A stretch of DNA of 64,000 nucleotides from Gaetbulibacter sp. 4G1. Its GTDB lineage: Bacteria; Bacteroidota; Bacteroidia; Flavobacteriales; Flavobacteriaceae. The stretch spans positions 62,001-126,000 of the forward strand of contig NZ_MDVN01000022.1 in assembly GCF_002741945.1 (NCBI RefSeq). The letters run 5' to 3'. The position numbers and the translations under genes are program-made. A model generated the notes under the pieces. It had not been told where the DNA came from and ran no database searches. It worked only from the letters and a program-made list of their open reading frames with translations. Below, one piece after another: positions 1-39,930 of this stretch; positions within the stretch are counted from its first letter, which is position 1, and each line of letters starts with the position of its first letter.

Positions 1-31
1 ATTAAATTACAACAACGAATACAACAATTAA

Positions 32-844: not shown

Positions 845-849
845 TAATC

Positions 850-883: not shown

Positions 884-888
884 AAAGA

Positions 889-1872: not shown

Positions 1873-1893
1873 ACAACTTATTATAAAACAATT

Positions 1894-1923: not shown

Positions 1924-2000
1924 TTAACATCTAAATTCTTTAAAGCAAAAGTAAGCTATCATAGATATTATCGTCAAAAAACTAAGTAAAATAATTTTCT

Positions 2001-3113: not shown

Positions 3114-3118
3114 AGAAA

Positions 3119-4018: not shown

Positions 4019-4050
4019 ATAAAGCTTTAGCTCCATTTGAAGAGCAAAAT

Positions 4051-4755: not shown

Positions 4756-4833
4756 TAAAATACACTTAATGAAACACTAAATGTTACAATTAGGTTATAT
4801 AATCGTCTACTTTTATAGCAAACAGATTTTTAT

Positions 4834-6360: not shown

Positions 6361-6362
6361 TT

Positions 6363-7094: not shown

Positions 7095-7154
7095 TAATTA
7101 AATTTTCGATCAAAAATAGGGGATTCTTTTTATAACTATTAAAAGAATATTAAA

Positions 7155-10155: not shown

Positions 10156-10192
10156 AAAATTTGATTTAAACCCCTAATTTACTTATTAATCA

Positions 10193-11077: not shown

Positions 11078-11092
11078 TCTTAATTTACTTTT

Positions 11093-11815
11093 TTATTGTT
11101 TGTTTAATTTCCAATCATATGGAAAATAGCTTAGTTTATACTTTCCTTCTAATTTTTCAGTTCTGTATTTATTAATAAAATCGATTTCAGATTCACCCTT
11201 CATAGTAAAATCACCTTTATACCATTCCATAATTTGTGAAGCTTGAACACGCTTCTTTTTAGTGTTTACTCTTAAAAAATCTCCGTTAATAGCTTTTTTA
11301 GTTTGCGTCTCTAATTGCGCATCTAACGTATCTGGTAAATAAGCTTTATTTATTAATGGAGGGCACCCAACTGCGCCACAAACTAATACAAAATGAAAAC
11401 GTGCATCATTAAACTGAGCTCTTAATAATTTATGCTCAATATCATTTAGTGTGATATTTTTTCCTGCTAAACTATACTTAGTTTTATCAAAAAAACCAGC
11501 ATTATCTAATGGAGAATTAGTTGGATAATTTTCGATAATTCCTTTTATGACAGATAAGTTATAAGCATTAATCCAAAAAGCTTGATAATTTTTTGCATCA
11601 TTCTTTGAAACCGAAATAGCTTCAGCAAGATTTAACAACTCATTTAAACCTTCTTGGTTTTCATAAACTTTAGAATAAGCGACTTTACCATTACTAACAT
11701 AAGTTTCAAAAAAAGTATTAGTTTTATTGAAAAAGACATTCACATCTTGCGAAAACCCTTTAGTGCTAACTAAAATTATTACTAATATTATTATTTGTTT
11801 TTTCATTTGATTCAA
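11093..11815 (-). CDS. DUF547 exported protein
   Basis: A 240-aa protein with a cleavable signal peptide (IIILVIILVSTKGFSQ) and a DUF547 domain: FWINAYNLSVIKGI, ITLNDIEHKLLR and RFHFVLVCGAVGCPPL. It is a paralogue of the lipoprotein at 3119-4018 but shorter and without the lipobox or linker. No enzymatic activity is established for the family. It precedes the outer-membrane barrel gene by 15 bp. The divergent gene at 12013 starts a different operon, so the 197-bp gap holds promoters for both; I found no clean TAnnTTTG match there. Confidence 0.8.
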   Translation of the reverse strand: MNQMKKQIIILVIILVSTKGFSQDVNVFFNKTNTFFETYVSNGKVAYSKVYENQEGLNELLNLAEAISVSKNDAKNYQAFWINAYNLSVIKGIIENYPTNSPLDNAGFFDKTKYSLAGKNITLNDIEHKLLRAQFNDARFHFVLVCGAVGCPPLINKAYLPDTLDAQLETQTKKAINGDFLRVNTKKKRVQASQIMEWYKGDFTMKGESEIDFINKYRTEKLEGKYKLSYFPYDWKLNKQ

Positions 11816-12012
11816 TTTATCATTTGCAAAGTAATAACTCCTAGGTCGTATAAAATGTTAGATAGCTTACATTGATAAAAAAAAGTTTTTGACGTCTTTA
11901 AAATCTTTAAATCCTTACAATACAATTTCAATTTATAGCTATTCTAAATTAATAAGCTTAAGTTAAGTTATTATCTTTAACTTCGACCTAATACAGCATA
12001 ACTAACAAAATC

Positions 12013-13356
12013 ATGGAACACATTGTTATTATAGGAAACGGAATTTCTGGTGTTACAACAGCAAGGCATATAAGAAAACTTTCTGATAAAAAAATTACCA
12101 TAGTATCTGCAGAAACCGATTATTTCTTTTCTCGAACGGCACTTATGTATGTATACATGGGTCATATGAAGTTTGAACACACGCAACCTTACGAGTCTTG
12201 GTTCTGGAAAAAAAACAGAATAGAGCTCAAAAAAGGCTATGTAAAGACTGTTGAAACTAAAAGTAAAACCTTGCATTTTGCAAATGGAGACGCATTACAA
12301 TACGATAAATTAGTAATTGCTACTGGAAGTAAACCAAATAAATTTGGATGGCCAGGTCAAGATTTAAATGGTGTTATGGGTATGTACCACAAACAAGATT
12401 TGGATAATCTCGAAGAATATGCTCCTAATAATAAAGTGTGTAAACGTGCAGTAATTGTTGGTGGTGGCTTAATTGGTATTGAATTAGCAGAAATGTTACA
12501 TTCTCGTCATATCCCAGTTACTTTTTTAGTTAGAGAATCTAGCTTTTGGAATGGTGTTTTACCTGAAGGAGAAAGTGCTATGATTAACAGAGAAATATTA
12601 GAAAATGGTATTGATTTACGATTAGGTGTTAATTTAAAAGAAATTAAAGCAGATAAAAACGGCAAAGTTAAATCTATAATTATTGCAGAAACTGGCGAAG
12701 AAATTGAATGTAGTGTAGTTGGATTAACAGCTGGAGTTTCTCCAAATATCGATTTTATTAAAGATTCTGAAATTGATACTAATCGCGGTGTAAAAGTAAA
12801 TCGCTTTTTAGAAACTAACATTCCTGACATTTATGCTATTGGTGATTGTGCAGAACAGCATGAGGCAATAGACCAACGCAGACCCATTGAAGCTGTTTGG
12901 TATACCGGAAGGATGATGGGAGAAACTGTTGCTCAAACCATTTGTGACAATCGTATCGAATACAAGCCTGGGCATTGGTTTAACTCAGCAAAATTTATAG
13001 ATATTGAATATCAAACCTATGGTTGGGTTTGGGCACAACCAAAAGATAATGAAGCTCGCTTTTATTGGGAGCACGAAGATGGGAAAAAGTGTATTCACAT
13101 AAACTACGATAAAAATACACGAGAGTTTATAGGTATCAATAATTTCGGAATTAGAATGCGTCATGAGTTTTTTGACAAAGTTTTAACCGAAAAACGCTCA
13201 ATAAATTATGTTTTAGAACATCTATCAGATGCTAATTTTGACCCTGAATTTTATAAGCTTTACGAGCCTGAAATCGTTGCCAAATTCAATCAAGAAAACA
13301 ACACTAATATTCAACTTAAAAAGAAAAGTTGGAAACGTATTTTCCAAACTTCATAG
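12013..13356 (+). CDS. NAD(P)/FAD-dependent pyridine nucleotide-disulfide type oxidoreductase
   Basis: A 447-aa flavoprotein with two nucleotide-binding folds: FAD-binding GNGISGVTTARHI near the N-terminus, NAD(P)-binding VIVGGGLIGIELAEML (about 148-163), and the FAD C-terminal signature IYAIGDCAEQ (about 273-282). There is no redox-active CxxC near the flavin, so it is more like a ferredoxin or rubredoxin reductase or NADH:acceptor reductase than a disulfide reductase. The 4Fe-4S membrane protein begins 18 bp after its stop, suggesting an electron chain from NAD(P)H through FAD to the iron-sulfur protein. The electron acceptor is unknown; a link to arsenosugar chemistry is only a positional inference. 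Confidence 0.85.
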   Translation: MEHIVIIGNGISGVTTARHIRKLSDKKITIVSAETDYFFSRTALMYVYMGHMKFEHTQPYESWFWKKNRIELKKGYVKTVETKSKTLHFANGDALQYDKLVIATGSKPNKFGWPGQDLNGVMGMYHKQDLDNLEEYAPNNKVCKRAVIVGGGLIGIELAEMLHSRHIPVTFLVRESSFWNGVLPEGESAMINREILENGIDLRLGVNLKEIKADKNGKVKSIIIAETGEEIECSVVGLTAGVSPNIDFIKDSEIDTNRGVKVNRFLETNIPDIYAIGDCAEQHEAIDQRRPIEAVWYTGRMMGETVAQTICDNRIEYKPGHWFNSAKFIDIEYQTYGWVWAQPKDNEARFYWEHEDGKKCIHINYDKNTREFIGINNFGIRMRHEFFDKVLTEKRSINYVLEHLSDANFDPEFYKLYEPEIVAKFNQENNTNIQLKKKSWKRIFQTS

Positions 13357-13374
13357 TAACTTATAGCATAAGCA

Positions 13375-14997
13375 ATGAAAACAATAAAATATACAGGGTT
13401 ATTTATTTTCCTTATCGGTCTAGCTATTTTTACGGCAAGTATTTTTACAGGATCTTTTAGTTTAAATGAATCAGAACTAAATGCTTTTATAAGTTCTAAA
13501 GGCTATAAAAGTGAAATTATAAAAGATGAACTTAAAAAAGCCGTTGTAAATAATAAAGGGTTAAATATTTTCGAATTCTCAAGTGGAATACGTAATGCTT
13601 ACCAAGCTTCTAATAATTATTATGATGGTTTAATAGCAAAGTATGATGCAGAAAAGAATTGGGATAAAAAAGGAGAGCAATTTCAATATAAAATTTATGG
13701 TAAACCACATACATTAAGTTACGAAATTGCAAAAAAAGCAGGCTCAGGTTTTGTTAAAGACAATGCAGGTATTATGTGGTGGCTTACTTTTGGTTTAGCA
13801 ATACTAGGAGCATTATTATTTATTCTTCCAAACTTCATATTACTTGGTAATAAGGGTATAAAAAACAATGGTATTTATTTAGAAGCGAGTACTAATCGAG
13901 GCTGGATAGCTTGGTTGGTATTAATATACCTCGTTTCGTTTTATTTGCTATTATATTTCTTACCAGATTATGTGGTTAACTGGACCTATATTTTAGATCC
14001 AATAAGTGAATTTTTAAATGGAGGCGCCGCAAGTCAGTGGTTCGTTTATGGTTTCTTGTATTGTGTAATCATGCTTGTTATGGCAATTCGTATGTATATT
14101 AAGTACCGTCATAACAAATATCAAGTAATACGTACAACCTCGGTGCTATTCTTTCAAATTGTATTTGCTTTTTTAATTCCAGAAATTATGACAAGTCTAA
14201 ATATGCCTGGATACGATTTTAAAAATGCATTTCCTTTAGATTATGACTTTTTCTTTGAATGGAATTTAGATAGTTTAAAAAACAGTGGAGCTGTTGGTTT
14301 ATTTATTTTAGTTTGGGGTATTGTATTAACCTTAATTATTGTACCTATTATGGTATATTTTTTTGGAAAACGATGGTACTGCTCGTGGGTTTGTGGCTGT
14401 GGCGGTTTAGCCGAAACTTTAGGAGACCCATATAGACAACACTCAGACAAAAGTCTTAATGCATGGAAATTAGAACGCTGGTTAATACATTCTGTATTAG
14501 TGTTCTCTTTAGTTATGACTTTAGTAACACTATACTGTTACTTTACTGGAGCACAATCATTTTTAGGGATAAATTCGCAATGGATTAAAGATACTTATAG
14601 CTTTTTAATAGGAGCTTGGTTTGCTGGGGTAATCGGAACTGGTTTTTATCCTATTTTCGGAAATCGGGTATGGTGTCGTTTTGGCTGTCCTTTAGCTGCT
14701 TACATGGGGCTTGTTCAACGCTTTAAATCACGATTTAGAATCACAACTAATGGCGGACAATGTATTTCTTGTGGAAATTGCTCTACCTATTGTGAACAAG
14801 GAATCGACGTGAGAGCCTATGCTCAAAAAGGCGAAAACATAGTAAGAGCAAGTTGTGTAGGGTGCGGTATTTGTTCTGCAGTTTGCCCAAGAGGTGTTTT
14901 AAAATTAGAAAACGGACCAGAAAAAGGACGTATTAATCCTACTGATGTTTTATTGGGTAATGATGTTAACTTAATGGATTTGGTAAATCAAAAATAA
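13375..14997 (+). CDS. Membrane-bound 4Fe-4S ferredoxin-type protein
   Basis: A 540-aa polytopic membrane protein with several helices and iron-sulfur motifs. Cysteine sites: WYCSWVCGCGGLAETLGDP (NapH/CcoG-like), WCRFGCPLAAYMG, then two 4Fe-4S ferredoxin clusters CISCGNCSTYCEQGID and CVGCGICSAVCPRG. The N-terminal helices (about 8-28, then 130-150 onward) flank a periplasmic segment of about 100 residues. It follows the FAD oxidoreductase by 18 bp and its TAA overlaps the next ATG (TAATG), so it is translationally coupled to the MORN-like gene. It probably moves electrons from the cytoplasmic flavoprotein to an acceptor at the membrane; the acceptor is not identifiable. Confidence 0.82.
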   Translation: MKTIKYTGLFIFLIGLAIFTASIFTGSFSLNESELNAFISSKGYKSEIIKDELKKAVVNNKGLNIFEFSSGIRNAYQASNNYYDGLIAKYDAEKNWDKKGEQFQYKIYGKPHTLSYEIAKKAGSGFVKDNAGIMWWLTFGLAILGALLFILPNFILLGNKGIKNNGIYLEASTNRGWIAWLVLIYLVSFYLLLYFLPDYVVNWTYILDPISEFLNGGAASQWFVYGFLYCVIMLVMAIRMYIKYRHNKYQVIRTTSVLFFQIVFAFLIPEIMTSLNMPGYDFKNAFPLDYDFFFEWNLDSLKNSGAVGLFILVWGIVLTLIIVPIMVYFFGKRWYCSWVCGCGGLAETLGDPYRQHSDKSLNAWKLERWLIHSVLVFSLVMTLVTLYCYFTGAQSFLGINSQWIKDTYSFLIGAWFAGVIGTGFYPIFGNRVWCRFGCPLAAYMGLVQRFKSRFRITTNGGQCISCGNCSTYCEQGIDVRAYAQKGENIVRASCVGCGICSAVCPRGVLKLENGPEKGRINPTDVLLGNDVNLMDLVNQK

Positions 14998-15467
14998 TGC
15001 GCTATTTAATTGTATTCTTATTGTTTTCCTCGCTTTCCTATGGTCAAAAAAGTTATCAAAAAACTTATTTTGATAATGATAATCTAAAATCCGAAGGTTG
15101 GATAAAAAATAATCAAAAAACAGGTTACTGGAAATTCTATTACAAAAATGGACTTATCAAAAAAGAAGGGCATTATTCAACAAATAAACCTATAAAATAT
15201 TGGTATTTTTACTCCGCAAATGGTACTAAAAAAAGTGAAGGGCATTTTAAAAAAGGTGAAAAGTCAAATTGGTGGTTATTCTATGATGATATGGAAAAAG
15301 TTAATCACAAATGCCAACTTAAACACAATCAGAAAAATGGTTATTGTTTAATGTACAAAAATGAAAAACTTATTTCAGCAGCTAAATTTAAAGCAGGAAA
15401 AAAAATTAAAGAATGGACAGATTTAAAAACATTCAAAAAAGAAAATAATTTATTAGACCTACAATGA
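14997..15467 (+). CDS. MORN/YwqK-like repeat protein
   Basis: A 156-aa exported protein with a short signal peptide (LIVFLLFSSLSYGQ) and repeats of the YwqK/MORN type: GYWKFYYKNGLIKKEG, KYWYFYSANGTKKSEG and NWWLFYDDME (about residues 40-105). Family members are often annotated as antitoxins or membrane-associated repeat proteins without proof. It overlaps the preceding gene by one base and the next (GT2) by 4 bp, so it is part of the FAD / Fe-S / glycosyltransferase operon. Function unknown. Confidence 0.7.
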   Translation: MRYLIVFLLFSSLSYGQKSYQKTYFDNDNLKSEGWIKNNQKTGYWKFYYKNGLIKKEGHYSTNKPIKYWYFYSANGTKKSEGHFKKGEKSNWWLFYDDMEKVNHKCQLKHNQKNGYCLMYKNEKLISAAKFKAGKKIKEWTDLKTFKKENNLLDLQ

Positions 15468-16156
15468 CACATATAAAAGTCATAATCCCTGCTTATAATG
15501 AAGCGGACTCCATTACGCATGTAATTAATGATATTCCAAATATAGTTGATGAAGTTATTGTAGTTAGTAACAACTCATCTGATGATACCGAAATGAATGC
15601 AAAAAAAGCGGGAGCTACAGTATTATTAGAAACAAGAAAAGGTTATGGGTATGCTTGTTTAAAAGGGATGGATTACATTGCAAATCAAAATGAAAAACCA
15701 GACATTATTGTATTTTTAGATGGGGATTATAGTGATTATCCTGAAGAATTAACCAAAATTGTAAATCCAATTATTAAAGATAATATAGATTTTGTAATAG
15801 GAGCTCGAGTTAAGCGACTTAGAGAACAAGGTTCTATGACGTTTCCTCAAATTTTTGGAAATTGGCTAGCAACTACTTTAATGACTTTATTTTTTAGAGC
15901 GAAATTCACCGATCTTGGCCCGTTTAGAGCTATTAAATATAATAAGCTTTTGGCTTTAAACATGGAAGACAAAACCTATGGTTGGACGGTAGAAATGCAA
16001 CTAAAAGCATTAAAACAAAAACTTACATATATCGAAATACCAGTAAATTACAGAAACAGAATTGGTGTCTCAAAAGTATCTGGTACGGTAAAAGGTGCTA
16101 TATTTGCAGGCTTAAAAATTTTAGGTTGGATTTTTAAATACAGTATTAAAAAATGA
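15464..16156 (+). CDS. GT2 family glycosyltransferase, dolichyl-phosphate-mannose-synthase-like
   Basis: A 230-aa cytoplasmic GT2 enzyme with no C-terminal membrane helices. VIIPAYNEADSI (N-terminal), VVSNNSSDDT, the DXD-type FLDGDYSDY and the DLGPFRAI catalytic segment are visible, as is the acceptor-loop PVNYRNRIGVSKVSG. This combination is that of the dolichyl/polyprenyl-phosphate sugar synthase subfamily, which makes a lipid-linked sugar donor. It overlaps both neighbours by 4 bp (ATGA). A GT-C mannosyltransferase-like protein encoded at 20925 could use such a donor (inference). Confidence 0.85.
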   Translation: MTHIKVIIPAYNEADSITHVINDIPNIVDEVIVVSNNSSDDTEMNAKKAGATVLLETRKGYGYACLKGMDYIANQNEKPDIIVFLDGDYSDYPEELTKIVNPIIKDNIDFVIGARVKRLREQGSMTFPQIFGNWLATTLMTLFFRAKFTDLGPFRAIKYNKLLALNMEDKTYGWTVEMQLKALKQKLTYIEIPVNYRNRIGVSKVSGTVKGAIFAGLKILGWIFKYSIKK

Positions 16157-17643
16157 TTCTAGACACAATAATCATAGTAGTATACACTATAGCGCTATTA
16201 CTTATATTTATGTATGCGTTGGCGCAGCTAAACTTACTATTCAATTATTTATCTTCTAAAAAAAACAACGCTTCTTGTGAGTCTTACGATTTATCAAATC
16301 CAGACGAAATCCCTTTTGTAACTATACAATTACCTGTTTACAATGAAATGTATGTTATGGAGCGTTTGCTTGATAATATTGCTAAAATAGATTATCCAAA
16401 AAGCAAATTAGAAATTCAAGTTTTAGATGACTCAACTGATGAAACAGTTGAAACGACTAAGAGGCATATCAATAGGCTTCAAACCAAAGGTTTAGACATA
16501 CAACATATTACTAGAGCTGATAGAAAAGGGTTTAAAGCTGGAGCACTTAAAGAAGGTTTAAAAACTGCAAAGGGGGAGTTTATTGCTATTTTCGATTCAG
16601 ATTTTTTACCAAAAAAAGATTGGCTAAAACGTACCGTCCCATATTTTAAAGACGAAAACATAGGTGTTGTACAAACACGGTGGGGTCACATCAACCGTAA
16701 CTATTCAGTATTAACTAAAATTCAAGCATTTGCTTTAGATGCGCATTTTACGCTTGAACAAGTAGGTAGAAATAGCAAAGGTCATTTTATCAACTTTAAC
16801 GGAACTGCAGGGGTTTGGAGAAAGACCTGTATTATTGATGCTGGGAATTGGGAAGGAGACACTCTAACTGAAGATTTAGATTTAAGTTACCGTGCACAAT
16901 TAAAAAACTGGAAATTTAAGTATCTTGAAGATGTTGAAACTCCAGCAGAACTTCCTATAGTTATAAGTGCAGCACGTTCGCAACAATTTAGATGGAATAA
17001 AGGTGGCGCAGAAAACTTTAGAAAGATGATGTGGAAAGTATTAAAAAATAAAAACATTTCATCTAAAACAAAAGTTCATGGTTTACTTCATTTATTAAAC
17101 AGCACTATGTTTTTAAACATCCTTATTGTTGCTGTATTAAGTATCCCAATGTTGTACATTAAAAACGAGTATGCTCATTTAAAACTCTATTTTTATGTCA
17201 TGAGCTTTTTTGTAATAAGCACCTTAATATTTTTTATATGCTATTGGATCATGTACAGAAAAATGTATGGTGGTGGTATTAAAAATTTTATGAATTATAT
17301 AGGGATGTTTTTTGTGTTTTTCTCAATAGCCATGGGTTTTTCATTGCACAATTCCATTGCTGTTTTAGAAGGCCATCTGGGGAAGAAAAGTGAATTTGTA
17401 CGTACACCTAAATTTAATATTAGTACTATAAAAGATGGTTGGAAAAAGAATAAATACCTAAAAAAAACAGTTTCTATACACGTTATTTTTGAAGGTCTTT
17501 TAATGCTTTATTTCGCCTTTGGTATGTATAGCGCATTTGTAGTAGGCGACCAAGGTGGTGATTTTGGATTGTTCCCTTTTCACCTCATGCTATTTTTAGG
17601 CTTTGGTTATGTTTTTATTAAATCGCTAACTTCTAAAGTTTAA
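16153..17643 (+). CDS. Cellulose-synthase-like processive GT2 glycosyltransferase
   Basis: A 496-aa membrane glycosyltransferase with an N-terminal helix, a GT-A domain and at least four C-terminal helices. The D,D,D,Q(Q/R)xRW signature of processive beta-glycosyltransferases is complete: [26 protein letters not shown] and QQFRWNKG. It differs from cellulose synthases in lacking a PilZ domain. It overlaps the GT2 gene by 4 bp and ends the operon; its TAA overlaps by 4 bp the stop of the convergent sulfatase gene. The polymer or glycolipid made is not known. Similar genes lie near arsenosugar loci, so a role in arsenolipid glycan synthesis is one option (inference). Confidence 0.85.
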
Positions 17644-30742: not shown

Positions 30743-30757
30743 CCCACTATTTCTTAT

Positions 30758-30909
30758 TATATAAAATTATGATTACCTTTATTTAATAAGAATTTTCTAT
30801 CATTTTTTATGGAAACTCAAGAACATAAAAATCATCAAAACTTCCGCATAGCATCCAAAAAAGACCGGATAAAAGGATAAAAGTTCTTTATATAAACAAG
30901 TTGTGTAAC
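30758..30909 (+). repeat. Degenerate left-boundary cassette element
   Basis: Right arm TTTATATAAACAAGTT (30887-30902) resembles the right arms of the other elements (consensus CATAYA CRANNA CGTT), with TAAACA at the 6-nt extra segment and AGTT for CGTT. TATATAAA at 30758-30765 pairs with TTTATATA at 30887-30894. The rest is not clear, so it could be a decayed element or an attI-like boundary. GTTGTGTAAC at 30900 starts the first cassette. Confidence 0.45.
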
Positions 30910-30998
30910 ATTATGAAAAACAGAAACCAATATAGTAATCTAATCAAAATTCGTTTTTTCAAAGGAAAAATGTAACTTTAATCAAATTTATAGAAGTT

Positions 30999-31493
30999 AT
31001 GAAAGTATCTAAATTAATTTCCCCAATCTTCCTTTTAGCGTTTATTATAATATATAGTTGTGGTAGTACAGGAGGTTATTTTAGTAAATCAAAATGTGGT
31101 ATGACATTGATAAATCCTAAAAAGAATTATAAGCAGACCGATTCTATTGTAAAAAGAGGAAGAATAGGTCTAGGAGTTTTAAATGTATTTGAAAAAGTCA
31201 GTGGACTAAAAGATAGTTCTGCAGTTTATGATTTTTATAATAAAAAGATAAGAGAAACAGCAAATTATACACCTCGCGAAGTAGTAGATGCACTGAATTT
31301 TAGAATTGAGAGCTTTTGTTTTAAGCACAAACAATTGGACAAAGACAGGAGAGATTCACAACTACCTCAGTCGAGTAGAAAAAAAGCTGATAGTCTTTAT
31401 TTTGTGAACTTAGATAATATTGAGACTTTTAATAAAATATTACAGGGACAAATATCTAATCCTTTAGACAGTATTGTAAAAAAAAAACCTTAG
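30999..31493 (+). pseudogene. Lipoprotein of unknown function, 5' part of a frameshifted gene
   Basis: The reading frame encodes 164 aa: signal peptide with lipobox IIIYSCGS (Cys about 22), then a helical, charged body. It stops at TAG 31491-31493 right after a run of ten A (31478-31487) encoding KKK. The frame of the next segment is open from 31460 and continues to 32254. Adding one A to the run gives a single 418-aa lipoprotein. No family is recognised. It is the 5' part of the first cassette gene. The shift may be a sequencing error, a true mutation or a slippage switch. Confidence 0.7.
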
Positions 31494-32254
31494 CCCCAAT
31501 TATTAATGGCGCATTTAAGAAAATAGAAATTAAAGATATTCCATATAATTTTTCTTCCGACGAACTTTTAGCTCTTGAAAATTATGTGCCGTTTTTTTGT
31601 AAAATAGAAATTAAAAATGATAATAACCATACTGATTTAAAGTTTCATAACATAGTGATAAATCACGAGGTTCCTAATAGTAAGAAACTAAATAATGATG
31701 ATGAAGATTCTGATTTTGAAAGATGGATGCCATATAATTTAGGGGCTACCTGTTCTTTTGAATATTCAAATCATTTTGATGATGAATCTACTGATGTAAA
31801 TCTATTGGCAGCACAACTGCAGAAAAAGTTGACTAAAGAACAATCTATTAAAATTCAAAATGATATAAATAGAGCAGTCATTCAATCATCAAAAAAAAAG
31901 GATATAATAGAATTAGGTGTATACTTTAAAAACTATTTCTCAAAAGAGTTCAAACTTAACTATGAAAGTTTCCATATTTCATTTAATGACCCTGAAATAT
32001 TTTCATTTTATTTCTTTATTAGAGAGGAAGTGATTGACAATTACTCAAATTTAAGTGTGTTACCAACAGAATCTTACTACGAAGAGTTAGGAAGTCAAAG
32101 CATAAGATTAAAATCTATTAAACCTGATACCGAGGAAATTACGAATAAACTTGTTGATTTAGAAAAACTAAGGGTTTGCATTGAGATTAACACCTCTTCG
32201 ACTAATACTAGTGAGACCTTTTTGAGTAAAAAATGTTTTGAATATAATCTATAG
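31460..32254 (+). pseudogene. 3' part of the frameshifted cassette lipoprotein gene
   Basis: No ATG starts this frame near its beginning; it is open from 31460, and the first usable alternative start is a GTG at 31586. The translation (TLAPIINGAFKKIEIKDIPY, then FCKIEIKNDNNH and so on) is acidic, with many Asp, Glu and Asn, and has no recognised domain. It lies -1 relative to the upstream frame, and the A10 run falls inside the 31460-31490 overlap, which supports one former gene. Whether it is translated alone is doubtful. Confidence 0.65.
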
Positions 32255-32288
32255 AGTTTATTGAGCTCTTTAAAAATATGCTAATAAC

Positions 32289-32424
32289 GTTACACAACAA
32301 CGTGTATAATTAATTGCTCGAGTTTCTCTCTGCCAATCGGAAAATTCTCTGAATTTTCCTCAGTCCAAAACCTTTTGCTAACTTAGTTGCTAATCGCAAC
32401 TAATCATACACAAACACGTTGTAC
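32289..32424 (+). repeat. attC-like cassette element A (126-bp palindromic core)
   Basis: Outer ACAACG (32297-32302) pairs with CGTTGT (32417-32422). Left arm TGTATAATTAATTGC pairs with the right arm, which carries the extra TGTTTG (as reverse complement) between AACG and the paired segment. Central perfect hairpin GGAAAATTC / GAATTTTCC (32339-32347, 32351-32359). Upstream, GTTACACAAC (32289-32298) is the end of the first cassette. Confidence 0.85.
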
Positions 32425-32431
32425 TTAATTT

Positions 32432-33343
32432 ATGTCGAAAAGCAAACCTGGAATCGAATTTGAAAAATTAGCTGAGTCAATATTCAAAAAGTTGATTCGT
32501 GACGACCGATTTGAATCTGTAGAACATAATGTACAACTAATGGGTCAAGATGGTCTTAGGCAAATTGATGTATTAGTGAAAACTAAATCAATAGGCATGG
32601 AATTTAATACCATAATTGAGTGCAAAGATTACAAAAGAAAACTTTCAATAATTTATGTAGATAGCTTCCATTCTAAACTTCTTGATGTAAATGCAAGTAA
32701 AGGCATTCTGGTTTCAAGAAATGGATTTTCTACAAAGGCTATTTCCAAAGCGAAAAGATTGGGTATTACTTTGTGTACAGCTGACGAGGCATCAGATCCA
32801 AACTGGAAATTAAAAGTAGATATTCCAATTGTTTTAGAAGAAATTCAACCAGTTCATTTTAGGTTTACTGGTGAGTTTAACACGCAAGAAATGATTAATA
32901 TTCCTCATGAGAATCTTCCAGTAATAAATGACATTGACCTCACTAAATTCGTAAACGACGGCTGGAAAAATGGAAGTTTACCTTTCAAAAAAACTAAGAA
33001 ACCGCAAAAAGTAACAATTGATAGTTTATCTCCTCCTTATTATATCAAAGCTGAAAATGGAGTTCTTGTAGAAATGAAAAATTTTGAAGTTACTTTCTCA
33101 TTAGAAATTCGATATTATATTTCTAATCTAAATGAATTGAAAAATACTCAAATTTTGAATAATATAACGTCTAGCAGTACCACTATATTCTTCGATGTTA
33201 ACTCTATTACTGATTTGAATTTTAATCCTAAAATAATCCCTAAAACACATTTAAAAAACTACAAAGGATTAACTTTATCTATCAAAATACTAACAGATAT
33301 GGATGATGATTATAAAAAAGTTCAATTTTTTAAAATAAACTAA
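32432..33343 (+). CDS. Mrr-like restriction endonuclease-fold protein (cassette 1)
   Basis: A 303-aa protein with an N-terminal PD-(D/E)XK nuclease fold of the Mrr_cat type: FEKLAESIF helix (10-18), Asp46 in QIDVLVK and Glu63-x-Lys65 in IIECKDYKRK, followed by SKGILVSRNGFSTKA. A DNA-cleaving or defence-related role is likely from the fold. The C-terminal 180 residues are beta-rich and unrecognised (VKVDIPIVLEEIQPVHFRFTGEF onward). It starts 14 bp after the cassette's left end, and its stop TAA (33341) is inside the terminal repeat of the next element. No methyltransferase partner is present, so it is not a classical type II system. Confidence 0.78.
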   Translation: MSKSKPGIEFEKLAESIFKKLIRDDRFESVEHNVQLMGQDGLRQIDVLVKTKSIGMEFNTIIECKDYKRKLSIIYVDSFHSKLLDVNASKGILVSRNGFSTKAISKAKRLGITLCTADEASDPNWKLKVDIPIVLEEIQPVHFRFTGEFNTQEMINIPHENLPVINDIDLTKFVNDGWKNGSLPFKKTKKPQKVTIDSLSPPYYIKAENGVLVEMKNFEVTFSLEIRYYISNLNELKNTQILNNITSSSTTIFFDVNSITDLNFNPKIIPKTHLKNYKGLTLSIKILTDMDDDYKKVQFFKIN

Positions 33344-33479
33344 ATACAACAACGTGTATAGTCAATTGCTTGATTATCGCCTACTTGGAAATTCCTTCGG
33401 AATTTCCTCTGGTTCGTTTTTGTTTACTAACTTAGTCCTAGCCTACGCAACTGAACCATACACGAACACGTTACCACAC
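33341..33479 (+). repeat. attC-like cassette element B (126-bp core)
   Basis: ACAACG (33349-33354) opens the core, which ends CGTTAC (33469-33474). The right arm, as reverse complement, reads TAACG, TGTTCG, TGTATGGTTCAGTTGC, against left TGTATAGTCAATTGC. Central perfect hairpin GGAAATTCC / GGAATTTCC (33387-33395, 33399-33407) with loop TTC. TAAATACAAC (33341-33350) ends cassette 1; GTTACCACAC (33470-33479) starts cassette 2. Confidence 0.85.
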
Positions 33480-33481
33480 AT

Positions 33482-34114
33482 TTGATAAAAATCGAACGTT
33501 CATATAATCCAGAAGAAATTAAACTGTTGAAAAGCAGGAAAAATTCGCTTTGGGACCACTTTGAGAATTTTGGACTAAAATTTATTGGAGTAACATTTGT
33601 ACTTCTTGCACCTCTATTACTTTATGATAAGTTTATTAGTAAAGTCTCGTCTGAAACGCAACTTCTGATTTTAATTCCTTTACTTATAATTTCAATTGGA
33701 ACTGTAATTTATTGGATGAATAAAAACGGAGAAATAGGCTGGAATAAAAAAGTGGAAAACGAAATAAAAAATGGACAAGCTCAAGTTCTGAAAATACAAA
33801 CGGGCAAAGTATTTAAGCGAAAGCAAACTTGGGATTTAGGCTCTGGTTTTTATTTAAAAATATCAGATAATCAGACCCTGTTTTTGCAAGGACAATATTT
33901 TGACGAATTACAATATGGACGGAAATTTCCAAATACTGACTTTGAGATTGTGAGAACCAAACTGACTTTTAACGAATTGATTGACATAAAATCTTTTGGA
34001 AAATACTTAAAACCTGAAAAGAAATTAAAAGCATTTACTAAAGAACAATTTGACAAAAACGAAGTTCATTGGGATGGAGATTTATTGGAAATTCCAATTG
34101 AACAAATAAAATAA
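33482..34114 (+). CDS. Two-helix membrane protein of unknown function (cassette 2)
   Basis: A 210-aa protein with two hydrophobic helices (about 33-52 and 63-81: FIGVTFVLLAPLLLY and LLILIPLLIISIGTVIYW) and a C-terminal soluble domain of about 120 aa (TGKVFKRKQTWDLGSGFYLKI...). I do not recognise the family. No ATG fits the start; TTG at 33482 is the first possible start and lies 2 bp after the cassette's left terminus, so the true start may be a nearby non-ATG codon. It ends 4 bp before the right terminal repeat of its cassette. Confidence 0.6.
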   Translation: MIKIERSYNPEEIKLLKSRKNSLWDHFENFGLKFIGVTFVLLAPLLLYDKFISKVSSETQLLILIPLLIISIGTVIYWMNKNGEIGWNKKVENEIKNGQAQVLKIQTGKVFKRKQTWDLGSGFYLKISDNQTLFLQGQYFDELQYGRKFPNTDFEIVRTKLTFNELIDIKSFGKYLKPEKKLKAFTKEQFDKNEVHWDGDLLEIPIEQIK

Positions 34115-34118
34115 AAAC

Positions 34119-34256
34119 GTGTGGTAACAATGTGTATCATTCATTGCTAGTAAAGGCTTACTTACGAAAATCCTCGCGGATTTTCTATTCGGTTTGTATT
34201 TGCTAAATTAGGTGTTTAAAACACGTAACAAACCATATACAACCACGTTGTATTTA
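34119..34256 (+). repeat. attC-like cassette element C (125-bp core)
   Basis: ACAATG (34127-34132) opens and CGTTGT (34246-34251) closes the core. The right arm reads, as reverse complement, AACG, TGGTTG, TATATGG; left arm TGTATCATTCATTGC. Central hairpin GAAAATCC / GGATTTTC (34166-34173, 34178-34185) with 4-nt loop TCGC. GTGTGGTAAC (34119-34128) ends cassette 2; GTTGTATTTA (34247-34256) starts cassette 3. Confidence 0.85.
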
Positions 34257-34296
34257 ATACCAGAACAAATTAACGTTCCTCTTTTATATTAAAAAA

Positions 34297-34347
34297 TTGT
34301 AGTATTTAAAATATTATATATATTTGCACTGACTATACGGTCAGTCA
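34297..34347 (+). promoter_or_regulatory. Promoter and TetR operator inside cassette 3
   Basis: TTG (34297-34299), 19 nt, TATATTTG (34319-34326) fits the Bacteroidota -33/-7 pattern TTG, 19-20 nt, TAnnTTTG. Directly downstream lies TGACT, ATACGGTC, AGTCA (34330-34347), an inverted repeat where the transcript would begin, 10 bp before the TetR ATG. This suggests an autoregulated promoter driving TetR, GNAT and RsgA. Confidence 0.8.
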
Positions 34348-34357
34348 ATTTAATTTT

Positions 34358-34894
34358 ATGGATAAAAAAGAACAAATAATAGAAATCGCAACCAAACTAT
34401 TTTCTGAAAATGGATTTGAAAACACACCTATTTCAAAAATATGCGAGGAAAGTAATGTTTCCAAAGGATTAGTTTTTCATCATTTCAAATCTAAAGATGA
34501 ATTGTTAAGGGAAATATTTTCAAGCACTACAGAAACAATAATTAAATTAAATGAATCTGTTAACAAAGAACAATCTCCAATCAAACAATTGTTGGATTTA
34601 ATCAATTCATTCTTTTCGCAAATAGAAAAGGATAAATTATTTTTTCAATTGAATTTAAACATTATGATTCAACCAAAAACAAGGGTGCTATTAAACGATT
34701 TAATAAAAGAAAGAAGTGCTTTTATCTTAAATTCTGTAACACAACTTTTTGAACAAATAGATACAGAAAGTGCAGAGATTAAAAGTTATTTATTTATAGC
34801 AGAACTAGATGGTATTGCACTTAACTATTTAGGAATTTTTGATGATTACCCATTAGATAAAATCAAAAACCAACTAATAAAAAAATATACTTAA
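34358..34894 (+). CDS. TetR family transcriptional regulator (cassette 3)
   Basis: A 178-aa TetR repressor: N-terminal HTH KEQIIEIATKLFSENGFENT, ISKICEESNVSKGLVFHHFKSKDELL (about 8-48), then an alpha-helical ligand/dimer domain with no clear signature. It binds DNA as a dimer and is released by a small ligand. Its operator-like inverted repeat overlaps the promoter at 34319-34347, so it probably represses its own operon, which continues with the GNAT gene 1 bp further on and then rsgA. The ligand is not predictable. Confidence 0.88.
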   Translation: MDKKEQIIEIATKLFSENGFENTPISKICEESNVSKGLVFHHFKSKDELLREIFSSTTETIIKLNESVNKEQSPIKQLLDLINSFFSQIEKDKLFFQLNLNIMIQPKTRVLLNDLIKERSAFILNSVTQLFEQIDTESAEIKSYLFIAELDGIALNYLGIFDDYPLDKIKNQLIKKYT

Positions 34895-34895
34895 A

Positions 34896-35678
34896 ATGGA
34901 ATTTAAAATAACACAAGACACGAATAAAATTAACGAATTAAGAGCACAGTTATATTCAAAATTAACAGCTCCTATTGATGCAATGTGGGAGTTATTATAC
35001 ATAGCATCAGCTAAAAACTATCTAATTTATAGTGAAGAAAAAAATATAGGATATTGCTCCATTGACAACAATCATAGCCTTCTGCAACTATTTTTTTTAG
35101 ATGGTTTTAAAGCTAAAATGAAAACTGTAGTTGAATCTCTTATTGAGCAAAAATTAATAGTTTCAGCAAGTTTAAGTTCAAACGAACCAATAGCATTTAA
35201 CACTTGTTTATCACTTTCAAAATCAATCAAGCCAAATACGTTTTGCTTTCAGCATACAAATTCAGAAGTTGATGAAAATTCATCTTTAAATCTTGAATTA
35301 GTATCAGAAACTGATATTCCAGAAATCAAATCGTTTTTAAAAGAACAAATTGGAATGGATGATACCTTTGGCTATACTGAAAACTTGGTAAGCAGAAAAG
35401 AAATTTACTTTATAAAAGAAGGCAATAAAATTATTACTACTAGTGAATGTAGATGGAGTGATACACAGCCAGAAATAGCCGATTTGGGAATTATTGTAAA
35501 TAAAAATCAGCAAGGAAAAGGAATTGCTACTCAAGTTCTGAAATTGCAAGCAAACAGAGTGATACAAGCAAACAGAAAACCAATTTGCTCAACAACAATT
35601 GACAATATTGGTTCACAAAAAGCAATTGAAAGAGCTGGTTTTTATTGTTCAAATATCATTTTTGATATTCAATTTTAA
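34896..35678 (+). CDS. GNAT family N-acetyltransferase (cassette 3)
   Basis: A 260-aa protein whose C-terminal half (about 135-260) is a GNAT domain: the acetyl-CoA binding LGIIVNKNQQGKGIATQVLK (Q-x-x-G-x-A form) and the C-terminal TTIDNIGSQKAIERAGFY are present. The N-terminal half is unlike GNAT at sequence level but has a similar length, so it may be a degenerate duplicate. The substrate is unknown. One base after the TetR stop and 10 bp before the RsgA ATG, it is in the same operon, so the TetR ligand may be linked to it. Confidence 0.8.
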   Translation: MEFKITQDTNKINELRAQLYSKLTAPIDAMWELLYIASAKNYLIYSEEKNIGYCSIDNNHSLLQLFFLDGFKAKMKTVVESLIEQKLIVSASLSSNEPIAFNTCLSLSKSIKPNTFCFQHTNSEVDENSSLNLELVSETDIPEIKSFLKEQIGMDDTFGYTENLVSRKEIYFIKEGNKIITTSECRWSDTQPEIADLGIIVNKNQQGKGIATQVLKLQANRVIQANRKPICSTTIDNIGSQKAIERAGFYCSNIIFDIQF

Positions 35679-35688
35679 AGTTAGAAAA

Positions 35689-36753
35689 ATGACAATAAAC
35701 GATTTAGGTTTTTATAAACAATTAGAAATATATCGACAAGAACATCAATTGGACTCTTTTGAAGTTGCTCGTGTAGTTTCTGAACATAAAGATAGATACA
35801 CAATTAAAACCGTTTCTAACGAATTGGAGGCTGAACTTATTGGAAATTTAAGATTTACAGCAGAATTCAAATACGATTTACCTGTTGTCGGAGATTGGGT
35901 AGCTATTAATGAATATGATGACAATAAGGCGTTAATCCATTTTGTATATCCAAGAACGTCTATATTAGCAAGAAAAGCAGTTGGTAAACTTGGTAAAACT
36001 CAAATAATTGCAACTAATATTGATCTTGGCTTAATTGTTCAATCAGTAAATCGAGATTTTAATTTAAACCGAATTGAACGCTATTTAACTATTTGTAATT
36101 CGGCTAATATTAGACCTATTGTTATTATTAGTAAGATTGATCTAATCCAAACATCAGAATTAAATGAAATTTTAAATAAGACTAAAGAACGAATTAAAGG
36201 CGTTTTAATAATTGCAATTAGCAATCAATCAAAAGATGGGATTAGTGAAATAAAACAACAATTAACAAAAGGAAAAACGTATTGTTTGTTAGGTTCTTCG
36301 GGAGTTGGAAAATCAACGCTAATAAATACCTTAATTGGAAAAAATATTATGAATACTGGAAATATTAGTGAAAGTATTGATAGAGGAAAGCACGTTACAA
36401 CTCGCAGAGAATTAATTGTTACAGAAAATGGAATTTTAATTGATAATCCTGGAATGAGAGAAGTTGGAATAACTGACAATTCCAAAGGTCTTGAATTGAC
36501 TTTTGATGAAGTTTCCAATTTAACATTCGACTGTAAATTTAATAACTGTACACATACAAATGAAAAAGGTTGTGCTATTATAAATGCTTTGGAAAACGGA
36601 GAATTAGATTTGGAATCATATCAAAATTTTCGAAAAATGGAACGAGAACGACTATTTTTCGACTCGAGTTCAGAGGAACGTAAAAAGAAAGATAAAGATT
36701 TAGGAAAATTGATTAAAAATGTAGTTAAAGAAAGAAAAAGAAACAAGTACTAA
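35689..36753 (+). CDS. rsgA: RsgA-like ribosome small-subunit GTPase (cassette 3)
   Basis: A 354-aa circularly permuted GTPase. An OB-like N-terminal domain (about 20-90), then G4 SKID (148-151), G1 GSSGVGKST (202-210), G3 DNPG (252-255) and a zinc site C282, C287, H289, C295 (C-x4-C-x-H-x5-C) match RsgA/YjeQ, which checks late 30S maturation. The start at 35689 fits the OB fold; an earlier in-frame ATG at 35599 would overlap the GNAT gene and add 30 aa with no homology. A cassette-borne RsgA is unusual; the chromosomal copy would be expected elsewhere in the genome. Stop at 36753 is inside the cassette's end repeat. Confidence 0.88.
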   Translation: MTINDLGFYKQLEIYRQEHQLDSFEVARVVSEHKDRYTIKTVSNELEAELIGNLRFTAEFKYDLPVVGDWVAINEYDDNKALIHFVYPRTSILARKAVGKLGKTQIIATNIDLGLIVQSVNRDFNLNRIERYLTICNSANIRPIVIISKIDLIQTSELNEILNKTKERIKGVLIIAISNQSKDGISEIKQQLTKGKTYCLLGSSGVGKSTLINTLIGKNIMNTGNISESIDRGKHVTTRRELIVTENGILIDNPGMREVGITDNSKGLELTFDEVSNLTFDCKFNNCTHTNEKGCAIINALENGELDLESYQNFRKMERERLFFDSSSEERKKKDKDLGKLIKNVVKERKRNKY

Positions 36754-36889
36754 ATACAACAACGTATATAAAAAATAGCGGCTTTAATGCTTAAACGAAA
36801 ATGAATTTTATAAATTTAAGGTCAGTTATAATCTGAAAAATTAGTGCGTAAAAATCCGCTACTTTTCATATACAAGAACGTTGTAACAC
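36747..36889 (+). repeat. attC-like cassette element D (126-bp core)
   Basis: ACAACG (36759-36764) and CGTTGT (36879-36884) enclose the core. Left arm TATATAAAAAATAGCGG pairs with right arm TATATGAAAAGTAGCGG (15 of 17) after the extra TTCTTG in the right arm. The central hairpin is weak here (5 bp). TAAATACAAC (36751-36760) ends cassette 3; GTTGTAACAC (36880-36889) starts cassette 4. Confidence 0.83.
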
Positions 36890-36890
36890 A

Positions 36891-37520
36891 TTACTCAAAA
36901 AACTCTGGCAATAAATTTTGAAATTCCTTTTTTCCTTTAGAAGTAAGAAAAGGGAATAATATACTTAAGAATGTATTTACGTGATAATCTATATTTCCTG
37001 TATTCAATTTATTCGAATAAAGATGACTAGAATATAACCAAGTATTACCATAATCAATCATTCTTTCCGCTAGAAAATTATATTCTAATTCAAAAGATGA
37101 TTCTTTCATCAAATCTTTTACTTTCATTTTTTTAAATAACAAGAAACACCCCTCAATTCTTTTTTTATATACCTGTTGAAAATGTTTTTGTACTGTACTA
37201 TTTATACAAATAAGATTATATAAGTCAGTCCAAAAAAAATTATAATCTAACATTCTCCTCATACTTCTCTCAATATCAATTTTAACTTGTTCAATTGAGA
37301 CTTCAACATTAGCTAACAGATCAATTCTTTCGTCAAATTCTGAAACCATTTCAAAATACAAGGCCTCAAAAATATCTTCTCGTTTTTTGTAATGATAATT
37401 TAAATTTCCCGGACTCATATTCATTTTTAAGGCTATCATTCTTATAGTTACATTGTGATATCCTTTTTCATTGAATAAAGTCTTAGCTGCTTCTAAAATT
37501 AGTTTCTTTTTTTTGCTCAT
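36891..37520 (-). CDS. TetR family transcriptional regulator (cassette 4)
   Basis: A 209-aa TetR regulator with HTH KLILEAAKTLFNEKGYHNVTIRMIALKMNMSPGNLNYHYKKREDIFEAL (about 5-52) and a helical C-terminal domain. It is divergent from the hydrolase gene; two direct repeats of TTAGTAAACTTGTCCTAAA (37520-37538 and 37549-37567) fill the shared 54-bp gap and are the likely operators for both genes. This is the only cassette gene on the - strand. The ligand is unknown. Its C-terminal FFE is near the cassette's left end. Confidence 0.86.
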   Translation of the reverse strand: MSKKKKLILEAAKTLFNEKGYHNVTIRMIALKMNMSPGNLNYHYKKREDIFEALYFEMVSEFDERIDLLANVEVSIEQVKIDIERSMRRMLDYNFFWTDLYNLICINSTVQKHFQQVYKKRIEGCFLLFKKMKVKDLMKESSFELEYNFLAERMIDYGNTWLYSSHLYSNKLNTGNIDYHVNTFLSILFPFLTSKGKKEFQNLLPEFFE

Positions 37521-37567
37521 TAGTAAACTTGTCCTAAATAAATATTTTTAGTAAACTTGTCCTAAAA
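37520..37567. promoter_or_regulatory. Two direct operator repeats between divergent cassette-4 genes
   Basis: TTAGTAAACTTGTCCTAAA occurs at 37520-37538 and 37549-37567 (19 bp, 29-bp spacing). Each is a partial inverted repeat (TTAG...CTAA). The first covers a TTG at 37529-37531 and the second covers TAAACTTG at 37552-37559, 20 nt later, fitting the -33/-7 spacing with one -7 mismatch. Likely TetR binding sites that block the hydrolase promoter. Confidence 0.72.
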
Positions 37568-37574
37568 ATACAAA

Positions 37575-38432
37575 ATGAAATCATTATATAAATCACAAAT
37601 TGGAAAAAAAGAGATTATAAGTCTTTATGATCAAAAATTAAAGGACTTAAATATTGATTATAAATACAAACTCATCAATACGAGTTTTGGAAAAACCAAT
37701 ATTATCGTGATTGGAGATTCCTCGAAACCACCAATATTAATAATCCACGGTTCAAATGGATGTGCTCCAATTTCATTAGAAACCTATCCAAATCTTTACA
37801 AAGATTTTCAAGTATTTGCAATAGATGCTCTTGCGCAACCCAATAAAAGTGCGGAAAACAGGTTGAGTATGAAAGACGACAGTTATGGTTTTTGGATGAA
37901 TGAAATTATAAATAAACTAAGCCTAACCGATGTAACTATGGCTGGTTTTTCGTTTGGAGGACTAATTATACTCAAAACATTAATTCAAGATGAAAAAAAC
38001 ATTAAAGAAGTGTTTTTATCTGCTCCTGCTTTTATTGTAAATGGTAATCCTATAGTTTTATTATTTAAGGTTTTTATTCCTATGAAGCTCTATATGAAAA
38101 CTAAAAAATCAAAGTATCTTGAAAAATTTTTAAACACTCTTTTTACAGAACCAGATACATTCGCTCTTGAGTATTTATCAAAAGTGTTTTTATATTTTAA
38201 TATGGACTTCACACCAGTTCCTGTAATAAAAGATTCTGAAGCCAAATTGATAACCACTCCAATAAATATATTTGCCGCAAAAAAAGATATTATGTTTCCT
38301 GGAATAAAAATGCTTAAACGTGCTAGCAAAATTTTTCCATCTTTAAACAATACTATTTTATTAGAAAACTCTAAACACGTCCAAAACAGAATTGATAATA
38401 ATAAAATAGAAAAAATAATATCGAGAAAATAA
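37575..38432 (+). CDS. Alpha/beta-hydrolase (cassette 4)
   Basis: A 285-aa cytoplasmic alpha/beta-hydrolase. The oxyanion-hole segment IIHGSNGC (about 53-60), nucleophile elbow MAGFSFGGLIIL (Ser about 121) and a C-terminal KHVQ (His about 270) fit a Ser-Asp-His triad; the Asp in NIFAAKKDIMFPG is the likely acid. Substrate is unknown; hydrolase plus TetR pairs often handle a small ester or lactone that is also the inducer (inference). Start is the ATG 10 bp after the second operator repeat, and the stop is 2 bp before the cassette's right end. Confidence 0.84.
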   Translation: MKSLYKSQIGKKEIISLYDQKLKDLNIDYKYKLINTSFGKTNIIVIGDSSKPPILIIHGSNGCAPISLETYPNLYKDFQVFAIDALAQPNKSAENRLSMKDDSYGFWMNEIINKLSLTDVTMAGFSFGGLIILKTLIQDEKNIKEVFLSAPAFIVNGNPIVLLFKVFIPMKLYMKTKKSKYLEKFLNTLFTEPDTFALEYLSKVFLYFNMDFTPVPVIKDSEAKLITTPINIFAAKKDIMFPGIKMLKRASKIFPSLNNTILLENSKHVQNRIDNNKIEKIISRK

Positions 38433-38512
38433 CGTATTACAAGAAAGGCTAAAAAAACAGAACCTAACCTACCAAACCGATTTTCCGTATTTTAGCTGGA
38501 ACGTTAGGTGTA
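38426..38512 (+). repeat. Short variant cassette element E
   Basis: Between cassettes 4 and 5. The end of cassette 4 (AATAACGTATTACAAG, 38428-38443) is the reverse complement of its start at 36880 with 12 of 16 matches. GGCTAAAA and TTTTAGCT form the paired arms, with the extra TTCC in the right arm before CGTTAGG (38502-38508). Shorter (about 75-80 bp) than the others. ACCTAAC (38462-38468) also pairs exactly with GTTAGGT (38503-38509), which fits the canonical integron R''/R' consensus. Confidence 0.6.
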
Positions 38513-38531
38513 ATTTGACCAAGCCTTGAAA

Positions 38532-39077
38532 ATGATATTAAAACATGAAAATTTCGTAATCGAAATAACAGATGAATCTGATTTGGATTCAGCAAAATTT
38601 AAGAAACAATATCCAGCCGATTTAGGTCATAAAATAGAATATCAACCTTCCTCTAAACATGGAATTCGAGTAATAGAAAGCGGAATTGAAAAATGTAGCG
38701 CAATATTATTGGAAAATGGAGGCGCAACTAGAATTTCCGAAAACTCATTCCTTATAAAAAAGGACAGAATCTATATCTGCTGTTCTGACAAAGTTTATTG
38801 TTTAAATATAACGGATTTATCTGCTAACTGGAGAAAACAATTTGACATTGCAACCTGTTTTGGAATTTACGAATTTGAAGATGACTTTGTTATACACGGA
38901 GAACTTCAGATTAGCCGAATCGACAAAAACGGAAACGAAAAATGGACTTTCGGAGCCAAAGATATTTTTGTGAATCCAGATGGAAAAAAAGAATTTAAAA
39001 TTAATGGCGACAGAATTGAATTGACAGATTGGGATGGGACGAAATACGAATTAAACTCTGACGGAATTGAAATGTAA
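38532..39077 (+). CDS. Beta-rich protein of unknown function (cassette 5)
   Basis: A 181-aa protein with start ATG at 38532 (TTG at 38526 adds two residues). It has short repeated strands: ILLENGGATRISENSFLI, IYICCSDKVYCLNI, GIYEFEDDFVIHGELQISRIDKNGNEKWTFGAKDIFV and YELNSDGIEM. The GxxIWxF...DIFV pattern resembles small hypothetical proteins found singly in many bacteria; the repeat of bladelike strands suggests a beta-propeller or lipocalin-like fold. No function known. It sits in a cassette whose start (GTTAGGTGTA, 38503) matches its end (TACACCTA-GCAAC, 39084-39096). Confidence 0.65.
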   Translation: MILKHENFVIEITDESDLDSAKFKKQYPADLGHKIEYQPSSKHGIRVIESGIEKCSAILLENGGATRISENSFLIKKDRIYICCSDKVYCLNITDLSANWRKQFDIATCFGIYEFEDDFVIHGELQISRIDKNGNEKWTFGAKDIFVNPDGKKEFKINGDRIELTDWDGTKYELNSDGIEM

Positions 39078-39080
39078 AAA

Positions 39081-39222
39081 AACTACACCTAGCAACGTGT
39101 ATAATTCATTGTTCATTCTATGAGCTTTTGGAAAATCATACGGATTTTCCTATGTTGTGCTTTTGTTTACTTGTTTAGTTCCTAAACAACATAACGAAAT
39201 CTCACACGAATACGTTGGCATG
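39081..39222 (+). repeat. attC-like cassette element F (127-bp core)
   Basis: GCAACG (39092-39097) and CGTTGG (39213-39218) enclose the core. Left arm TGTATAATTCATTG pairs with right arm TGTGAGATTTCGTTATG after the extra TATTCG. Central hairpin GGAAAATC / GATTTTCC (39130-39137, 39143-39150), 5-nt loop. TACACCTA-GCAAC (39084-39096) ends cassette 5. Confidence 0.82.
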
Positions 39223-39276
39223 TATTTGCGAGAAAGACATACGTTACTATTATAAAAATTATTGGATAAAAAAATC

Positions 39277-39906
39277 ATGACTGTAATAAATCAACTTTCA
39301 TCATCATTAGGACATAAAGGGAATGATGCGAATATAGCTTTAGCTAAGGAACTTGCTGAAACTGAAAATAGTGATGCTATTAAAGAACTTGTTGAGAATC
39401 TAAAAAACAAGGATAAAAAAATACAAGCTGATTGTATAAAAACACTTTATGAAGTTGCCTATATAAAACCAGATTTGATTGCGAGTTACTATTCAGAATT
39501 TTTAGAATTATTATCAAACAAAAACAATAGATTGGTTTGGGGTGGAATGATTGCCTTAATGACAATTACAGATTTGAAAAGTAAGGAATTATTTGAATCA
39601 TTAGATTTGATTTCAGATACGGTAAATCAAGGTTCCATTATAACGATTGATTCAGGAGTTGAGATTTACGCAAAGCTTAATAAATACTCGGAATATCAAG
39701 ACAAAGTAGAAAATTTGTTGATTGACCAATTATGGAAATGCCCGATAAAACAATTGCCTAAGTATATGGAAAAATCAATTATTTCGATAACTAAATGGAA
39801 TAAGGAGATTTATAAAAAAATAATTAATGAACGAAAACCGGAATGTGAAAAAGACTCTCAAGTAAAAAGACTTGATAAAGTGTTGAAACAGATTGATAAG
39901 ATATAA
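39277..39906 (+). CDS. HEAT-like helical protein (cassette 6)
   Basis: A 209-aa all-helical protein: the segment KELVENLKNKDKKIQADCIKTLYEVAYIKPDLIASY and NNRLVWGGMIALMTITDLKSKELFES (about 45-110) read as HEAT/armadillo-type repeats, suggesting a protein- or nucleic-acid-binding scaffold. ATG at 39277 gives a clean N-terminus; TTG at 39262 would add five residues. It is last in the array and no right terminal element follows it within the window (I looked for ACATGCCAAC and found none), so its cassette end has been lost or is too decayed. Confidence 0.65.
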   Translation: MTVINQLSSSLGHKGNDANIALAKELAETENSDAIKELVENLKNKDKKIQADCIKTLYEVAYIKPDLIASYYSEFLELLSNKNNRLVWGGMIALMTITDLKSKELFESLDLISDTVNQGSIITIDSGVEIYAKLNKYSEYQDKVENLLIDQLWKCPIKQLPKYMEKSIISITKWNKEIYKKIINERKPECEKDSQVKRLDKVLKQIDKI

Positions 39907-39930
39907 AACGCATTATGAGAATTAGTATAG

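Follow-up and report, generated by a model that had tools for sequence, protein, structure and literature searches.

Element E5, the last but one site in an array of six cassettes, is best explained (at a probability of about 85%) as an attC-like site that belongs to cassette c5 and abuts, in the array, the first bases of cassette c6. On this reading E5 is a short representative of a hairpin-site family, and its heptamer ACCTAAC is loop sequence. The window, the whole 64,000-nt stretch of DNA that was analyzed and to whose positions the coordinates refer, holds the array at 30900-39093, with cassette starts at 30900, 32418, 33470, 34247, 36880, and 38503 (Table 1). Judged by its sequence, the array appears to be part of an integron-like gene-capture variant found in many flavobacteria; the bridge to known integrons that the original prediction had raised as one possibility found no support.

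The leader in front of the first cassette resembles the stretch that, in a second array of this genome, separates the recombinase stop codon from the first cassette; its use as attI is putative. This second array (L006; contig 23 of G000, 1-12215) is a complete counterpart of the window array, and a tRNA-Ser gene lies ~190 bases from its recombinase gene. The window contains several attC-like sites and yielded no PF00589 tyrosine recombinase and no Rfam match. In a genome of the same genus (G240; locus L159), 13 bp separate the two flanking genes and no array stands between them; the whole window array is an insertion/deletion difference between congeners. Cassette c4 (34247-36758) is long and carries three genes, encoding a TetR-type regulator, a GNAT acetyltransferase, and an RsgA-type GTPase. 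The segment 39094-39930 contains E6 and the gene behind it (39262-39906); its start, GTTGGCATG, is present and a matching end was not seen in it.

Table 1. Coordinates of the window array and of the parts of E5
Feature	Position	Strand	Remark
Whole array and one further gene	30743..39930	+	Missing between the same two flanking genes in congener G240
attI-like leader before the first cassette	30755..30902	+	72% over 182 bp against the leader of the second array, the first bases of the alignment falling in the end of the flanking gene
Cassette c1, start GTTGTGTAAC	30900..32298	+	Own end at 32287-32298
E1, long attC-like site, 125 bp	32296..32420	+	AAC to end of GTT
E2, long attC-like site, 125 bp	33348..33472	+	AAC to end of GTT
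E3, long attC-like site, 124 bp	34126..34249	+	AAC to end of GTT
E4, long attC-like site, 125 bp	36758..36882	+	AAC to end of GTT
Cassette c5, start GTTGTAACACAT, own end R''	36880..38443	+	
TetR-type regulator of c5	36891-37520	-	
Alpha/beta hydrolase of c5	37575-38432	+	
True R'' of E5, ACGTATTACAAG	38432..38443	+	8/9 with c5 start; aligned with the site of the c5 orthologue in L179
L'' arm GCTAAAA of E5	38448..38454	+	Predicted circle-form fold
ACCTAAC, R'' of the original prediction	38462..38468	+	Six of seven bases within the predicted 20-nt loop 38463-38482
L' arm TTTTAGC of E5	38490..38496	+	Predicted circle-form fold
GTTAGGTGTAAT, R' position of E5 and c6 start	38503..38514	+	8/9 with c6 end
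c6 end (R''), ACTACACCTAGC	39082..39093	+	First part of E6

Integron R boxes follow the consensus RYYYAAC/GTTRRRY, and an integron cassette begins with bases that complement its own R''. ACCTAAC (38462-38468) and GTTAGGT (38503-38509) were found exactly where the original prediction had put them; both heptamers fit the consensus and they form seven exact pairs. E5 is also a real boundary of an integron-like array, as had been supposed, and it is indeed short: it spans 65 nt, counted from AAG (38441) through GTT (38505), compared with 124-125 nt for E1-E4 by the same measure. The assertion that the consensus is matched nowhere else is correct within the window array, where GTTRRRY occurs at one of the six cassette starts (38503), but does not extend to the genome, since a start in the second array reads GTTAGGC.

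Which ends belong together was read from closure, the complementarity between the start of a cassette and an end. The preceding cassette had been said to match its own start at this place, and it does: the c5 start GTTGTAACACAT (36880) pairs with ACGTATTACAAG (38432-38443) at eight of nine bases (positions 2-10). Against the six window starts in order, this R'' scored 6, 6, 5, 6, 8, and 2 of 9, so that the c5 start is the best, although 3 of 111 unrelated cassette starts reach 8/9 as well. Cassettes c2, c3, and c4 close in the same manner, c2 by GTTGTACTT with AAATACAAC (8/9), c3 by GTTACCACA with TGTGGTAAC, and c4 by GTTGTATTT with AAATACAAC. The c6 start GTTAGGTGTAAT (38503) pairs 8/9 with ACTACACCTAGC (39082-39093), a score reached by 0 of 111 unrelated starts. 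In an orthologue of c5 (L179; 69% identical), the stop codon is followed by TAACGTGCTACAACAAT, a sequence that aligns with TAACGTATTACAAGAAA at E5; this alignment places the R'' of E5 by homology. The same locus provides an exception to closure, because the start before its module, GTTACCACCAAT, fails to match its own end.

In the R'' of E5, AAG replaces the AAC of the family and one more position differs from the c5 start, so E5 may be decayed. An ordinary attC site that died after the array lost its recombinase would show such an AAC-to-AAG change and the two departures from the c5 start, and no recombinase gene stands beside the window array. However, the arms and both closures of E5 are still readable, and the genome holds a recombinase with the same kind of array; we regard a dead site as possible but rather unlikely.

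The proposal that ACCTAAC and GTTAGGT are the R'' and R' of one functional canonical site, which a standard IntI could use, fared much worse. ACCTAAC begins 18 bases beyond the end of the true R'' and matches the start of its own cassette, c5, at only 2 of 9 bases (6/9 with the c6 start); with its presence at the level of chance, it was rejected as the R''. Because the c6 start pairs with the c6 end and ACCTAAC reaches only 2/9 with c5, GTTAGGT is the tag of c6. The fallback of the original prediction, that the pair arose by chance, agrees with the numbers: ACCTAAC occurred within E5 in 911 of 100,000 mononucleotide shuffles, which corresponds to a chance of ~5% that one or more of the six elements would show such an event. 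Among 111 relatives, four were scored as having an interior complement of the following R' heptamer; 2/109 were real once L063 and L081, three-letter leftovers at contig ends and hence artefacts, had been excluded; the shuffle expectation was 2.56/111 with the two artefacts included. None of the intact short sites listed below precedes a GTTRRRY start, and the site of the c5 orthologue has no ACCTAAC. The predicted pairing of ACCTAAC with GTTAGGT at the array junction (-5.8) is nearly equal in stability to the L stem (-5.5), and IntI1 has been reported to recombine 5/6 attC sites from three phages, 2/6 from a Polaribacter phage (PMC9892861). These points favor use by IntI, as do the exact pairing and the fit to the consensus, but the partner of GTTAGGT is the c6 end and the genome itself lacks a canonical IntI. 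The pair looks like a coincidence, and we consider a bridge to canonical integrons very unlikely.

Independent evidence for the pairing of starts with their own ends came from relatives of the c6 protein, which a protein search detected in 12 of 299 family genomes, own genome included. This set was picked by protein and not by closure. All five relatives with both ends tabulated (L166, L168, L169, L170, and L176, the last two in one genome) close at 9/9, with three different tags; L165 had a start and no end in the 260 bases examined, L167 had neither, and the partial protein matches L171-L175 lie outside the tabulation. A start complementary to its own R'', as in integrons, was found in c5 and c6 (8/9) and in five c6 relatives (9/9), with L179 as the exception.

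The wider site family was described from 111 high-confidence cassettes, defined by a closure of 9 or more and a stem of 8 or more. With loose settings the detector overlooked the window array but assembled spurious chains in control regions, and a stricter version still yields spurious sites, so only cassettes at these thresholds were counted. Selection by closure makes the agreement between own start and own end in this set (5.99 of 6 tag bases) circular, and for that reason the co-variation argument rests on the c6 relatives. The six tag bases agree at 2.15 of 6 on average between different cassettes. GTT stands at all 111 starts, position 4 is G or A in all, and positions 5-9 are variable. 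All starts have A at position 11, opposed by G in the complementary end of 97/111, a conserved mismatch that the way the cassettes were chosen did not favor and that could mark the strand. Only 1 of 111 starts fits GTTRRRY; R boxes in the site family of E5 are poorly predicted by the canonical consensus.

Short sites are a regular type of this hairpin-site family. Eight of the 111 sites are under 90 bp, one of which (L054) is a truncated long site and was dropped from the short-site count; the intact short sites, with those of L168 and L179 included and E5 apart, number nine, measure 52-61 bp, and come from seven loci. One of them belongs to this genome's second array (L006 6239-6179) and shares the arm GGCTAAAA with E5. 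The nine, with that of L179 entered one base short, aligned too loosely to support a covariance model. The existence of further E5-like sequences as a family was examined and rejected: 299 family genomes gave only E5 itself over most of the site, and the best other match spans 34 of 83 bases.

In integrons, the integrase recombines attC as a folded bottom strand. In the predicted bottom-strand fold of the c5 circle (c5 end joined to c5 start; -8.4), E5 has a long R stem, separated from a 7-bp L stem by a spacer of 7 + 5 bases; an inner stem of 6 bp and a loop of 20 nt (38463-38482) complete the structure. This fold is unexceptional when taken alone (z -1.31, with 58 of 500 shuffles as low), which counts against our reading. 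At least eight R-box pairs were predicted in 107/107 circles, a result that is true by selection, and in 21/107 array junctions; four of the 111 cassettes were left out for length or a contig end.

The genome encodes four PF00589 matches: XerD, an XerC-like protein, a 245-residue protein, and a 370-residue protein on contig 23. Behind the gene for this 370-residue protein, in the same orientation, come the attI-like leader of the second array and at least 10 cassettes with such sites. The best-scoring family model for this array recombinase was the XerA-type NF040815 (212 bits, cut-off 220), and its best solved relative was XerA (5hxy). A scan of genome contigs identified 80 loci with recombinase relatives, and cassette units were counted at 49 of these, the others having <1500 bases on one side. 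Among the 32 loci of the closer relatives (L038-L093) with at least 1500 bases on both sides, a cassette unit lay downstream of the recombinase gene in 26 and upstream in 4, linking the sites to this recombinase family; L094-L117, mostly recombinases without the extension, showed no association (downstream 3/17, upstream 6/17). The same count gave two units in the window array and six elsewhere in the window (five in 1-30742 and one in 39931-64000), and single units thus prove nothing. Those single closure-plus-stem units, together with the general frequency of short palindromes between genes, might suggest that the repeats are ordinary intergenic palindromes or terminators whose ends match by chance, but start and end co-vary in c6 relatives found by protein, the units lie downstream and not upstream of one recombinase family, and a congener lacks the whole array; we consider this explanation very unlikely.

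Relatives of the array recombinase at E 1e-70 occur in 88 of 199 sampled family genomes. A Chryseobacterium plasmid (NZ_CP041688.1; L118) carries a recombinase relative with cassettes behind it at 11980-17000. In ten loci (L039, L040, L046, L058, L059, L068, L069, L077, L088, and L093), <260 bases follow the recombinase gene. Broken-off loci are expected if repeated sites break assemblies, and such arrays may be under-counted. A tRNA gene beside the recombinase was considered as a rule and rejected; among 29 loci, tRNA-Ser lies at ~190 bases in the second array and ~230 in L067, and tRNA-Met at ~410 in L064.

The array recombinase differs from IntI proteins in sequence. Between the motifs G[LMC]RxxE and Hx[LMF]RH, the spacing is 133 residues in 12/12 IntI rows (IntI1 and eleven others), 91 in the array recombinase, 90-94 in its relatives (97 in a second reading of L101), and 98 in the XerD of the same genome. 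The array recombinase shows a gap against IntI4 (2a3v), the 42-residue IntI-specific insertion is missing from it, and its score with TIGR02249 (196 bits) is below the cut-off of 265. PMC8138268 describes this insertion as essential for integron function, yet not fully conserved in an integron-like subgroup. In a tree of 47 rows, from which the XerC-like protein of the genome was left out, a 100/100 branch separates nine IntI rows from all others, with no array recombinase on the IntI side; the array-recombinase rows require three changes on the tree and are not one clean clade. Canonical IntI above the cut-off was found in 70 of 247 sampled phylum genomes; no genome of the window's family was among these matches, and none was found in the genome itself.

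The system resembles integrons in having a recombinase gene adjoining an attI-like leader, cassettes that mostly hold one gene and all point in one direction, hairpin sites with R and L boxes, ends complementary to the starts of their cassettes, and GTT at the joint. It differs in a recombinase that lacks the IntI insertion, falls outside the IntI clade, and has an extra N-terminal stretch; in tags that are not GTTRRRY (1/111); and in the location of the array on the 3' side of the recombinase gene, in the same direction. A CALIN consists of two or more attC sites with no integron integrase nearby. The window array is like a CALIN as a cluster of sites without a recombinase gene, but its sites belong to a non-IntI family and it has kept an attI-like leader. 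By its best-scoring model and nearest solved structure the array recombinase is like Xer proteins (XerA/XerC/XerD), whereas its gene is additional to those for XerD and the XerC-like protein and is linked to cassette arrays.

On the reading of E5 as the site of c5, the site would be complete only in the free c5 circle. In the folded bottom strand of the circle, the c5 end (R'') would pair with the c5 start (R'), followed by the unpaired spacer, the L stem, and the loop. A tyrosine recombinase like that of the second array, perhaps acting in trans on the window array, would cut at GTT and insert circles at the attI-like site or between cassettes, and the complementarity of ACCTAAC in the loop to the start of the neighboring cassette would be an accident. 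On balance, we favor the existence of a second integron-like system apart from IntI, in which an Xer-like recombinase without the IntI insertion captures cassettes whose ends bear a private six-base tag. Full pairing of the tag would be confined to the free circle, and each cassette would thus retain its tag from one exchange to the next.

A literature search whose scope excluded preprints and most subscription journals gave no account of this flavobacterial system and no paper on integrons or attC sites in Flavobacteriaceae, so the novelty of the system is provisional. For Bacteroidetes, the IntegronFinder 2.0 survey lists a single complete integron, in Salinibacter, besides isolated integrases (PMC9024848); related sources are a natural history of integrons (PMC8618304), a 2008 integron survey (PMC2426708), and a Flavobacterium genome (PMC4322650). 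If the recombinase does recombine these sites, cassette capture would not need the IntI insertion, and flavobacteria would hold a large cassette pool outside the canonical models.
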